Shown here piece after piece: positions 28,918-33,107 of a DNA stretch of 64,000 nucleotides. Under the pieces are notes generated by a model. That model was not told where the DNA came from. It saw only the letters and a list, made by a program, of their open reading frames with translations, and ran no database searches. Source of the stretch: Thermoleophilia bacterium SCSIO 60948 (GTDB lineage Bacteria; Actinomycetota; Thermoleophilia; Solirubrobacterales; 70-9); NCBI GenBank assembly GCA_021496505.1, contig CP053031.1:3030001-3094000 (forward strand), written 5' to 3'. The number at the start of each line of letters is the position of its first letter. The stretch's first letter is position 1. Made by a program: the position numbers and the translations under genes.

Positions 28918-30357
28918 CTAATAACCCGTCGCGATGACCCGGTAGGACGTGCCCTTGATCAGGGTGTAATAGGCGCGCTTGGCGCCGAGGGACGTCGACC
29001 AGATGACGCCCTTGCCGGCTCCTCGGCTCGCCACCTGCTTCGAGCTCTTGCCCTTCTTGACGACGAGGCGCTGGCGCTTCTTCGTGATCGCGACGTAGGC
29101 GATCGTGCCGCCGCGGACCGACGGGTTCTGGAGCGCGATCTTGTCGGACTTCTTGATCGTCCTGGTGCCGCCCTTGCCGATCGTCCGCGAGACGATCGAG
29201 TTGCGGTTCGGCTTCGCCACCGCGTAGACGATCCGCTTGCCGGAGATGCTCGGACGGCTGAGCTGGCCGTCCTTCGACGAGCTGTCGAGCACGCGCGTCT
29301 TGCCGGTCGTGCCGTCGCCCTTGATCGAGCGCACGGCGATCTTGTCGCGACCGTTCGAGACCGCGCGCCAGCCGATGTAGTCGCCGGTGACGGTCAGCGC
29401 GTCGGGGTTGCCCTTGACCGTGAACCGCGACACCTCCTCGAGCTCCCGGTTGCGAGCGAGCAGGAAGATCGTCTTGCCGCGGCGCACGGCGACGTAGCTG
29501 CCGCCGACCGCCGGGTCCTTGCCCGGCAGCGCCGTCTTGCCGTCGACCGTCTCCAGGACGCCGTCGCGATCGCGCAGCTGGTAGGCGAGCTCGGAGTCGG
29601 GTCCCGCCGACGGATCCGCGGCCGGCTTCGCGATCTGGCCGGCCGCGAGCTCGGCGGACTCCTCGGGCTCCTGCGCGGAGGCCGAGCTCGCGCTCGAGAT
29701 GAGCAGGACGGCCACCCCGGTGAGCGCCAGGGCGTCGCCGAAGCGGAAGCCGCGATAGATCGCGGGTCGCATCGCCATCGTCTCGCATGCCGCCTGGCCG
29801 AAGCGGTGCTTGGCGAACGGTGCCAGCGACACGATCGGCAGCGCGCGCCCGAGGCCGAACGCGAGCCCGACCCAGAGGCCGACGACCGGCTCGCCGATCG
29901 CGAACGCGATCCCGGCCAGCGCCCAGACGCCGAACGTCAACACGAAGGTCGTGAAGCCGAGGCCGAGCAGGCCGCCGTAGAGCGCCGAGGCCACGGGCAT
30001 CGGCATCGCGCGTCGCCAGTGCTCGGGGAGCTGGCGGCGGATCTGCGGCACGATCGGAGTGCCACGGGCCTCGAGCACCGCGGCGACGAGCGCGAGGACC
30101 GCGGCGAGGAGGAGCGCGACCGATCCGCCGGCGCCGTGGATCACGCCGCCGAGCAGGGCGATCAGCCAGAACGTCGCGACGCCGCCGGCGAGCGCGCCGG
30201 GGAGGAACGTGGCGCAGGCCGCCAGCGTCGTCGGCTGACCGCCGGTGTGGCCGGTCGGCCCGATCGTCTCGATCATCGAGAACCCGCACGGCGACCAGGT
30301 GCCGGTCATCCCGATCAGGACCGCCGCGGCGATGAGTGTGATCTCGAGAGCGCCCAT
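28918..30357 (-). CDS. MauF/CcdA-like membrane protein fused to a propeller-like extracellular domain
   Basis: 479 residues in two parts. Residues 1-235 hold about six membrane helices with GTWSPCGFSMIETIGPTG near the N-terminus, the SPCG pattern of CcdA/DsbD-type thiol transporters and MauF. Residues 260-479 have repeated short strands (IFLLARNRELEEVSRFTVKG; GRDKIAVRSIKGDG; GKRIVYAVAKPNRNSIVSRT) typical of a partial beta-propeller exposed outside. ATG 30357 overlaps the MauA-like stop (TGATG), so the three genes 30996-31904, 30357-30995 and this one are translationally coupled. Together they resemble a reduced mau cluster, and the fusion is unusual. Confidence 0.65.
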   Translation of the reverse strand: MGALEITLIAAAVLIGMTGTWSPCGFSMIETIGPTGHTGGQPTTLAACATFLPGALAGGVATFWLIALLGGVIHGAGGSVALLLAAVLALVAAVLEARGTPIVPQIRRQLPEHWRRAMPMPVASALYGGLLGLGFTTFVLTFGVWALAGIAFAIGEPVVGLWVGLAFGLGRALPIVSLAPFAKHRFGQAACETMAMRPAIYRGFRFGDALALTGVAVLLISSASSASAQEPEESAELAAGQIAKPAADPSAGPDSELAYQLRDRDGVLETVDGKTALPGKDPAVGGSYVAVRRGKTIFLLARNRELEEVSRFTVKGNPDALTVTGDYIGWRAVSNGRDKIAVRSIKGDGTTGKTRVLDSSSKDGQLSRPSISGKRIVYAVAKPNRNSIVSRTIGKGGTRTIKKSDKIALQNPSVRGGTIAYVAITKKRQRLVVKKGKSSKQVASRGAGKGVIWSTSLGAKRAYYTLIKGTSYRVIATGY

Positions 30358-30995
30358 CAGCAGGGCACGTCCGTCTGGAAGTAGAGGACGCAGAAGACCT
30401 TGCGGCCCGAGTAGCAGTAGCCGGTCAGCGAGGCGTCGCCGTTGATCCGCCGGTCCGACGGAGAGCAGCAGTCGACGAGCTTGCGGACCTTGCCGCCGCA
30501 GCAGCGATACCAACCGCCGTCGATCGAGGTCGAGATGTTGAACTTGTCGGCGACCTCGTCGCAGACGCGGGTGCGGGGCGCCGGAGGCAGGTCACGGCCG
30601 TCCGGGTCCTTGAGCGCCTTGCCCTTGGAGTCGACGGGGCTGCCCTTCTTGTTGATCGCGCGACCGAGGTTGTCGATCGGCTGACCGTCGGGGCGCAGCG
30701 GGAAGCCCTTCGCGTCGACCCGCGGCAGCGCCTTGCCGGCGGGGTGCGGGCACGAGCCCGTCGTGTAGATGTGGCCGCAGAAGTGGTAGGCGTCGGCCTC
30801 GCCGGGCTTGACCGACCTGGCGACGAGCCCGCCCGCGGTGACGGCGGTCATCGCGCCGCCGACCCTGGCGAGGAAGCCGCGTCGTGAGGTGTCGCCGGCC
30901 AGCGAGTCGAGCCGTCCGCCGACGGCGTCGGAGCGCTGAGCCTCGGCCTTTCCGGCGGCGGACCCTCCCCGCTCGCCCTTGCGTCCGAACTTCAT
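30357..30995 (-). CDS. Tat-exported Cys-rich protein resembling methylamine dehydrogenase light chain (MauA-like)
   Basis: 212 residues. A twin-arginine signal (TSRRGFLARVGGAMTAVTAG, about 36-55) shows export in folded form. The mature part has ten cysteines: YHFCGHIYTTGSCP, TRVCDEV, GGWYRCCGGKVRKLVDCCS, LTGYCYSGRKVFCVLYF and a C-terminal PC. The pattern of CCGG and DCC pairs recalls MauA, which has six disulfides and a tryptophan tryptophylquinone (TTQ) made from two Trp. Only one Trp is visible here, so TTQ as such is doubtful. Placed directly after (0 bp) the MauE-MauD fusion, whose job in mau clusters is to form the light-chain disulfides. Confidence 0.6.
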   Translation of the reverse strand: MKFGRKGERGGSAAGKAEAQRSDAVGGRLDSLAGDTSRRGFLARVGGAMTAVTAGGLVARSVKPGEADAYHFCGHIYTTGSCPHPAGKALPRVDAKGFPLRPDGQPIDNLGRAINKKGSPVDSKGKALKDPDGRDLPPAPRTRVCDEVADKFNISTSIDGGWYRCCGGKVRKLVDCCSPSDRRINGDASLTGYCYSGRKVFCVLYFQTDVPC

Positions 30996-31904
30996 CTAGC
31001 TCCCTGCGACCTGCGTTTGCATCATCAAATCTCCCTGTGAGCGCCGCTCCGCCGCCGCCAGCACGCTCTCGAGCTGAGCGAGGTTGTTGAACGATCCCTT
31101 CGCCAGCGAGACCCCGTCGCGGCCGATCGCGACAGCGTACGGACTCCCCGGTACGCCGAGATTCTCCCAGAGCGCGCTCTCATCCTCCTCCTCGAACGTT
31201 TCCACGCTGACCAGCGGATCGGTTCTGAGCGAGTCGACCGCGGGCCGCAGGCCGTGGCAGATGTGGCAACTCTCCGAGAGGAACACGGCGAGACCGATCT
31301 CGGTGCGCTCGCCCGCGAACGAGATCCGGTCGGCGAGCTCCGAGCGCTCGCCGAGCGGCGGGCCCTCGTGCGTGATCTCGAGAGCGGAGGCGGGCCCCAG
31401 GCGCAGGCGCAGCATCCCGACCTCGCGGGCCAGCGCGAGCACCGCGACGCCGAGTAGCAGGCAGAGGGCGAGGGCAGCGACGACTCCGAGGATCAGCCAG
31501 CTCTCGGTCGTCGGTTCGGTCTCGGGCAGGAACGGGATCGCGGCGAAGCCGGCGGCGAGGACGAGATTGCGGACCACGCCCGACCACGAGACCGTCGAGC
31601 GGGCGCCGAAGCAGGCGCACGGGGCGCCGGCGCGGCCGCGCATGATCGTCGCGACGAGCGTCGCCGCGAACATCGCCATCACGAACGCAGCGATCGGCGC
31701 GAAGAGCGGCGCGCCGGCGATCACGCCGACCCCCAGCACGAGCTCGAGCGCCGTCACGCCGGCGAATACGACCGCCTGGGCCCGGGGATCGGTGAACCCG
31801 AACGTCGCTGTCGCCTCGCGCGATGCCTGCGGCGAGGCGAGCTTGAGGACAGCGGAGGCGATCAGGAAGCCGCCGAGGACGATGCGAGCGACGAGCGCGA
31901 TCAC
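30996..31904 (-). CDS. MauE/DoxX-like membrane protein fused to a MauD-like thioredoxin domain
   Basis: 302 residues. The N-terminal 150 residues have four to five membrane helices beginning VARIVLGGFLIASAVLKLAS, with GAPCACFGARSTVSW, the Cys-x-Cys-Phe-Gly motif of MauE. The C-terminal domain (about 185-290) is thioredoxin-like, with AVFLSESCHICHGLRPAVDS (active-site CHIC) and the cis-Pro loop VPGSPYAVAI. MauE and MauD are separate in classical mau clusters; here they are one protein. A role in disulfide bond formation of the adjacent Cys-rich MauA-like protein is the natural inference. First gene of the three-gene operon. Confidence 0.8.
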   Translation of the reverse strand: MIALVARIVLGGFLIASAVLKLASPQASREATATFGFTDPRAQAVVFAGVTALELVLGVGVIAGAPLFAPIAAFVMAMFAATLVATIMRGRAGAPCACFGARSTVSWSGVVRNLVLAAGFAAIPFLPETEPTTESWLILGVVAALALCLLLGVAVLALAREVGMLRLRLGPASALEITHEGPPLGERSELADRISFAGERTEIGLAVFLSESCHICHGLRPAVDSLRTDPLVSVETFEEEDESALWENLGVPGSPYAVAIGRDGVSLAKGSFNNLAQLESVLAAAERRSQGDLMMQTQVAGS

Positions 31905-31955: not shown

Positions 31956-33008
31956 CTAGCCGATCGCGACCATGCGCTCGATCGGCACCCGCGCGCGCTC
32001 GGCCAGCGCCGGATCGACCTGGACCACGTCGCGCATGTCGCGCAGCGAGTCGCGGAGCTTCGGCAGCGTGATCATCTTCATGTACTTGCAGTAGGCCATC
32101 CGGTTGGCCTCGGTCAGCTTCGCCTGCGGCGCCGCCATCTGGAGCGGATAGAGCATCCCGGTCTCCGTCGCGACGATGAACTCACCCTCCGGGTTCGACT
32201 TGACGTGGTCGAGCATCCCCGACGTCGAGAGCATGTGGACGCCCTCCGGGTCGATGTCGCCGCTGGCGACGTACTCCATCGCCTGGGTCGAGCAGCCGCA
32301 CTCGGGGTGGATCAGGAACTCGGCACCACCGTGCTCGGCGCGCGTGCGCTCGATGTCGCCCGGCCGGATCCCGGCGTGGACGTGGCATTCGCCGTCCCAG
32401 ACGTGGAAGCGCGCGTAGCGGTCGGGGTCCTCGGTCAGGCCGGTCGCGCGCGCGACGTAGGAGCCGAGCCACATGTCGGGGCCGAAGAGGATCTCGGTCT
32501 CGGGGCCGTGCTCGGCCCAGATGTGCTCGACGACCGAGACGGCGTTCGATGACGTGCAGCAGTAGTCCGTCTCCGCCTTCACCTCGGCCGAGGTGTTGAC
32601 GTACATGACGACCACGGCGCCCGGGTGCTCGGCCTTCCAGGCGCGGAGCTGATCGGCGGTGATCGAGTCGGCGAGCGAACAGCCGGCGCCGGCGTCGGGG
32701 ATCAGGACCGTGCGCTCGGGCGAGAGGATCGAGGCCGTCTCCGCCATGAAATGGACGCCGCAGAAGACGATCGTCTCGTTGTCGGCCGCCGCGGCCTGGC
32801 GCGAGAGGCCGAGCGAATCTCCGAGGTGGTGCGCGGCGTCCTGGACCTCGGGCAACTGGTAGTTGTGGGCGAGGATCACGGCATCGCGCTCGCGGGCGAG
32901 ATCGGCGATCTCGGCGTGGAGCGCGCTCAGCTCGTCGGCCGACAACGCGTCGACCATCCCCCGCGCCTCCGGCGTGGCCATCTGGACCGTGGGCAACTCG
33001 ACTGCCAT
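31956..33008 (-). CDS. nadA: Quinolinate synthase A
   Basis: 350 residues. NadA condenses iminoaspartate with dihydroxyacetone phosphate to quinolinate using a 4Fe-4S cluster, in de novo NAD synthesis. Family stretches are AVILAHNYQLPEVQDAAHHL, ETIVFCGVHFMAETASIL, DAGAGCSLADSI, EFLIHPECGCSTQAMEYV and STSGMLDHVKSNP; the three cluster cysteines fall in FCGV, HPECGCS and a further Cys. ATG 33008 is chosen because AGGA lies 6 bases upstream. nadC is at 36919-37824; nadB is not in the window. Divergent from fpg. Confidence 0.95.
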   Translation of the reverse strand: MAVELPTVQMATPEARGMVDALSADELSALHAEIADLARERDAVILAHNYQLPEVQDAAHHLGDSLGLSRQAAAADNETIVFCGVHFMAETASILSPERTVLIPDAGAGCSLADSITADQLRAWKAEHPGAVVVMYVNTSAEVKAETDYCCTSSNAVSVVEHIWAEHGPETEILFGPDMWLGSYVARATGLTEDPDRYARFHVWDGECHVHAGIRPGDIERTRAEHGGAEFLIHPECGCSTQAMEYVASGDIDPEGVHMLSTSGMLDHVKSNPEGEFIVATETGMLYPLQMAAPQAKLTEANRMAYCKYMKMITLPKLRDSLRDMRDVVQVDPALAERARVPIERMVAIG

Positions 33009-33107
33009 CGGAATCCTTTCGATGTTCACCCTCTCGCGGTGCGACACGTCCATCGGAGTCGCGGGATCGGGTGAATGAACCTGGCCTAGAGTCTAAAGCC
33101 TCGCGTT

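Follow-up and report, generated by a model that had tools for sequence, protein, structure and literature searches.

A mau-type maturation operon with a presumed new exported Cys-rich client in a Thermoleophilia bacterium, and a candidate selenoprotein family among its MauF-like relatives

For decades, to our knowledge, MauE, MauD and MauF have figured only as helpers of amine dehydrogenases whose roles are poorly understood. MauE and MauD of Paracoccus take part in the maturation of methylamine dehydrogenase, and MauE has been proposed to function in disulfide formation (as cited in PMC7794033). We analysed a 64,000-nucleotide stretch of the genome of Thermoleophilia bacterium SCSIO 60948 (contig CP053031.1, positions 3,030,001 to 3,094,000; the window), in which three abutting or overlapping minus-strand genes at 28918-31904 (in the order gene 1, gene 2, gene 3; Table 1) recall the mau operon. 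A sequence-only reading had described them as a MauE-MauD fusion, a MauA-like protein exported by the twin-arginine translocation (Tat) pathway and a MauF-like/propeller fusion, and had suggested that the middle one may be a new extracytoplasmic redox protein with a self-contained disulfide-folding system. We conclude that in this operon the mau maturation module occurs in a variant form, paired with a new presumed client; the earlier observation was right and its interpretation half right. Our best reading of the module is that it is frequently selenocysteine-dependent and serves the disulfide maturation of exported Cys-rich proteins. For the operon in the window, we put at roughly 0.6 the probability that it encodes an extracytoplasmic system dedicated to the thiol-redox maturation of the gene 2 product, with a residue that is selenocysteine in most relatives and cysteine here. 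This reading builds on computational results: the identities of the E, D and F components, their co-occurrence, the conservation of cysteines, and a TGA at a fixed codon with a covarying hairpin.

The coordinates, strand and couplings of the three genes are all as previously given: the TAG stop of gene 1 directly abuts the ATG of gene 2, and the gene 2 stop shares bases with the gene 3 start codon in the string TGATG (30355-30359). Residues 2-122 of gene 1 belong to Pfam MauE (PF07291, E=9.7e-18; 65.1 bits against a curated cut-off of 27), and gene 1 also matches MauE (hhalign, E=5e-9) among the comparison profiles for MauE, MauD and MauF that we built from annotated mau and aau operons. From about residue 136, the protein matches MauD in the same kind of profile comparison (hhalign, E=8e-17). 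TIGR02661 (MauD) is matched at E=9.6e-9 with 35 bits; because its equivalog cut-off of 188.6 is not reached, the C-terminal part is best described as MauD-type rather than as a MauD equivalog. Judged by these matches to both parts, the MauE and MauD identities of gene 1 are genuine, and the proposed fusion stands.

The membrane domain of gene 3 aligns with MauF over 193 columns (hhalign, E=2.1e-20, probability 99.3%) and by this comparison is a true MauF member; the alignment takes in both the WSPCG motif and the PQ-RRQVP segment. The MauF half of the proposed fusion is therefore upheld, but the propeller half is not: the C-terminal 230 or so residues are repeat-like and gave no significant propeller match in the window protein. 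Relatives match propeller models weakly (LpqB propeller, E=8e-4; TolB, E=0.004), and a beta-propeller is possible. The repeat domain, which the sequence-only reading had placed where MauB would be expected, is unlike MauB by sequence (hhalign probability 1.4%), and we reject it as a MauB.

The operon is conserved far above chance: of the 399 genomes from the window's class, 48 have its genes with the same neighbours. The gene 2 family occurs in these 48 and also elsewhere in the phylum, and includes members from Solirubrobacter and Conexibacter; the MauF family is found in 75 of the same 399. Both families are present in 46 of the 48, the two exceptions being a marginal match and a contig-end fragment. 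The order E/D-client-F, with the genes within about 100 nucleotides of one another, recurs in nearly all loci that have both flanks. Where flanks are adequate, MauD lies beside the client, as does MauF except at locus L129, and MauE is fused or neighbouring. The window's class has E-D and F-repeat fusions, other loci (L123, as well as L118, L119, L125, L128 and L132) have an F-E fusion, and at L092 E and D are separate genes. Because the parts are fused differently between lineages, the recurrence of the E/D, Cys-rich protein and F set in Thermoleophilia and other Actinomycetota supports its being one functional unit. The presence of the same gene set in dozens of genomes, which the neighbourhood survey of relatives brought out, bears on the sequence-only reading in its favour as regards a self-contained redox/disulfide system.

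A pointer to the chemistry of MauF comes from the relatives, an aspect that lay beyond the single sequence read earlier. When their MauF genes are read from stop to stop, they start one codon past WSP, and TGA replaces the motif cysteine. Over 65 distinct loci the WSP-Cys codon is TGA in 40, TGC in 23 and TGT in 2; a second MauF clade has TGA there in 12 of 14 loci. The homologous codon is thus TGA at 52 of 79 distinct loci and TAA or TAG at none, and every in-frame stop reported in the MauF family by a whole-genome survey is TGA. Sequence 3' of the TGA keeps a conserved frame that matches MauF and contains a hairpin resembling a selenocysteine insertion sequence (SECIS), its apical loop usually 32-33 nucleotides downstream. 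The hairpin scores 19.6 in TGA copies against 13.4 after codon shuffling (0 of 300 shuffled sets reach it, p<1/300), while Cys copies show no excess (13.8 against 13.6). In an alignment of 36 copies, 95% of cells pair, five of seven pairs have changed on both sides, and none of 500 shuffles reaches the covariation score. Most of the MauF-like genes at L008, L012, L056, L061, L064-L068, L071-L091, L099-L110, L116 and L139-L152 have the in-frame TGA at this codon together with the hairpin.

Of course, the TGA codons could be real stops, the MauF genes being split, decayed or misassembled rather than encoding selenoproteins. Six of the 26 TGA genomes show neither SelB over the cut-off nor the selenocysteine tRNA (tRNA-Sec), and the selenocysteine machinery is not significantly enriched over Cys genomes (Fisher p=0.11). 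The other 20 have SelB or tRNA-Sec. All six machinery-negative genomes are drafts, and three of these contain SelB fragments. We discarded the machinery as a means of telling TGA genomes from Cys genomes, since many Cys genomes keep it, including that of the window (SelB at 618682-619728 and tRNA-Sec at 645980-646071 of G000:C1), whose organism can probably make selenoproteins, yet whose MauF in this operon uses cysteine. Against real stops speak the TGA, and never TAA or TAG, at one homologous codon, the downstream frames that are conserved and match MauF, and the covarying hairpin limited to the TGA copies, and we regard this explanation as highly improbable. We suggest instead that the MauF-like relatives are a candidate membrane selenoprotein family unrecorded in current inventories. 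The newest inventory, published in 2026 and listing 119 families of prokaryotic selenoproteins, holds no MauF or PU[GS] membrane family (PMC13188914), and we found no published report of a MauF selenoprotein in the open-licence literature. Many MauF-like TGA genes are likely to be truncated or missed in database annotation.

Gene 2 encodes a protein with a twin-arginine leader (SRRGFL), consistent with the Tat export already proposed, and the ten cysteines (residues 73, 82, 145, 165, 166, 176, 177, 194, 202 and 212) and single tryptophan (residue 162) counted earlier are indeed present. All ten cysteines are conserved among full-length family members, and the tryptophan is invariant in family alignments. 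Within the C-terminal domain the invariant positions are W162, C165-C166, D175-C176-C177, the RINGD region, Y193-C194, C202 and C212. The protein has no Pfam match, and we describe it as a new family and the presumed client of the operon's machinery. Two AlphaFold2 models were made, the second with high confidence (predicted template modelling score 0.81). Residues ~90-140 (window ~30576-30728) contain short D..G.PvD..G repeats, confidently modelled as short strands; this region is shorter in the distant relatives L071-L091.

The description of gene 2 as MauA-like is not supported as homology. Significant similarity to MauA is confined to the Tat leader, over 33 columns. With the leader removed, the mature part is not significantly similar to MauA (hhalign, E=0.22), nor does it align significantly better with MauA than with column-shuffled MauA profiles (p 0.17-0.5). 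A profile search of the PDB returned nothing relevant, and Foldseek with both AlphaFold2 models gave no methylamine dehydrogenase light chain among the matches listed and nothing at E<=0.001, although predicted folds of small Cys-rich proteins generally give poor matches. PF02975 is not matched, and TIGR02659 is matched by the leader alone. After five tests (the leader, hhalign, shuffled-profile, PDB and Foldseek comparisons) we reject homology of the mature domain as unproven. The sequence-only reading had itself named two outcomes that would count against it: a lack of MauA homology in profiles and predicted structure, which is what we found for the mature part, and homologues that never co-occur with MauE/D, which is the opposite of what we found.

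Some observations nevertheless favour a reduced mau operon, in which gene 2 would be a true but highly diverged MauA carrying a protein-derived cofactor other than tryptophan tryptophylquinone (TTQ), built for example from Trp162 and Tyr193, and the repeat domain would replace MauB. The leader is of MauA type, 16 of 29 family members match TIGR02659, and in the relative at L092 the match covers 105 positions (E=6.9e-5), well past the leader. There are weak profile links through a second client family (A-B, E=6e-4; B-MauA, E=2e-3), and by eye the motif order W-x3-C, DCC, [Y/W]C, C resembles that of MauA. Set against this are the lack of any significant profile or fold match for the mature domain, repeats that are not MauB, and a genome in which no MauB or MauA family was found (PF06433 and PF02975 are without a match, although no control genome gave one for either). 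A search with valid controls found no MauG anywhere in the genome, which extends the earlier remark that no mauG is adjacent. We consider a reduced mau operon unlikely. Gene 2 occupies the place of MauA and resembles it by leader and position; a remote kinship is weakly indicated, and we keep it in view because of the intermediate-family links and the L092 match. As had been pointed out, a standard TTQ is ruled out because it requires two tryptophans and gene 2 has a single invariant one. Trp162 and Tyr193 do, by eye, correspond in position to the two TTQ tryptophans of MauA, and it is just conceivable that the E/D/F machine and the MauF selenol or thiol drive, beyond disulfides, formation of a new protein-derived cofactor such as a Trp162-Tyr193 crosslink without MauG, but we think this very improbable.

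In the maturation system that we favour, the client would be exported by Tat and would require correct pairing of its ten invariant cysteines. The MauE domain of gene 1 (CxC) is presumably quinone-coupled, and the MauD thioredoxin-like domain (CxxC) presumably swaps disulfides with the client; from what is known of these families, the two may form an oxidising or isomerising pair. The single invariant cysteine or selenocysteine (WSPC/U) of MauF presumably serves to reset or isomerise by carrying electrons through the membrane, and the repeat domain fused to it may hold the client. The direction of electron flow, the relation of client to enzyme, the role of the repeat domain and the final function of the client are what we infer. 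Several points weigh against this system. Tat usually exports folded proteins, and the disulfides might instead be needed in the cytoplasm. MauF resembles CcdA/DsbD weakly (DsbD, E=0.12), and the reaction may be a reduction or an isomerisation and not an oxidation. The client at L129 has no MauF next to it, and in the TGA-free relatives G156 and G249 the best MauF-like match is at a distant locus. The roles given to all three members are putative, being read from sequence.

The second MauF clade adjoins MauD and other Cys-rich proteins with Tat leaders, for which neither Pfam nor NCBIfam recognised anything beyond the leader. Such families lie next to MauD and a selenocysteine-type or Cys-type MauF at L139 (4428-5576, minus strand), L140, L141, L142, L145, L146, L147, L149, L150 and L152 (3776-4276, minus strand), the last being the most MauA-like by eye. 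In Streptomyces, MauE/MauD homologues are found beside candidate precursor peptides (PMC7794033). From these two associations, exported Cys-rich proteins as a class seem to be what the module serves. The Streptomyces association also speaks for a different client, namely a peptide-like secreted protein or a structural protein of the cell surface, encoded in a cluster of natural-product type, which MauE/D would mature and which would not be a redox protein; the wide differences between the clients of the MauF clades and an unrecognised C-terminal extension of about 380 residues, into which the client domain runs on at L092 (1453-2883, plus strand), fit such a protein. Gene 2 is large, however, and its mature part is strongly conserved (W, DCC, RINGD, GYC), unlike the usual precursor peptide, and we think this identity improbable. 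A cell-wall-binding repeat guessed by eye in the L092 extension has no Pfam match and is not adopted.

Other features around the operon can be stated briefly. A NadA-like quinolinate synthase gene lies directly upstream (window 31956-33053, minus strand) and also adjoins the operon in L020-L022; as an upstream neighbour common to close relatives only, it was rejected as a member of the system. So was a gene between client and MauF in Solirubrobacter (L005, L013), which is on the opposite strand and by eye looks like a Tat phosphatase. In L007, L014, L015 and L016, genes 1 and 2 share a stop-to-stop open reading frame; we do not claim a fusion because the second match has a Tat leader of its own at its start and GC-driven read-through may explain the open frame. 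In one distant lineage a GroEL gene lies near the operon, mostly just past the MauF-like gene (L117, L120, L124, L126, L127, L129, L130, L131, L133, L134).

Table 1. Features of the operon, in window coordinates.
Feature	Position	Strand	Details	Basis
Gene 1, MauE-MauD fusion	30996..31904	-	302 aa, GTG start	
MauE domain, hydrophobic	31539..31901	-	residues 2-122	Pfam MauE match
CxC motif of MauE domain	31605-31625	-	PCACF	
MauD-like membrane anchor and thioredoxin-like domain	31044..31499	-	residues 136-287	hhalign
CxxC motif of thioredoxin-like domain	31251-31274	-	CHIC	
Gene 2, Tat-leader 10-Cys protein, new family, presumed client	30357..30995	-	212 aa, ATG start	
Twin-arginine motif	30870..30887	-	SRRGFL, residues 37-42	
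Cys-rich C-terminal domain	30360..30563	-	C145 to C212	family alignments, AlphaFold2 models
Gene 3, MauF-like membrane domain fused to repeat domain	28918..30357	-	479 aa, ATG start	
MauF-homologous membrane domain	29662..30357	-	residues 1-232	hhalign
TGC codon of WSPCG cysteine	30286..30288	-	Cys24; TGA in most relatives	
C-terminal repeat domain, possible beta-propeller	28921..29604	-	residues 252-479	

The occurrence of a free-standing MauE/MauD/MauF set beside unrelated-looking exported Cys-rich proteins suggests that what the three have in common is a role as a module dedicated to thiol-redox maturation. That TGA is fixed at the only invariant cysteine of MauF points to this residue as catalytic, and means that MauF can be tested as a family of membrane selenoproteins. 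With the mau operon of Paracoccus denitrificans (mauF-B-E-D-A-..., L034), the window's operon shares MauE, MauD and MauF homologues and a Tat-exported Cys-rich protein with a MauA-like leader right after MauD. It differs in that E and D are fused, F is downstream and fused to the repeat domain, MauB, MauG, amicyanin and MauJ are missing, and the client has neither significant MauA similarity nor a second tryptophan. The aau-type amine dehydrogenase operons (large subunit-mauE-mauD-light chain, L035-L040) have the same E-D-light-chain order but possess a heavy chain as well as a light chain with two Trp; in the stretches examined, MauF is not annotated. CcdA/DsbD membrane thiol-disulfide transporters are likewise polytopic, and their redox cysteine also lies within a Pro-Cys motif close to transmembrane segment 1, but the profile match to them is marginal and gene 3 groups with MauF. 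With prokaryotic selenoprotein families (PMC13188914), the relatives have in common a TGA at a redox Cys codon, a SECIS-like hairpin and a thiol-redox context, whereas the window's copy has cysteine.
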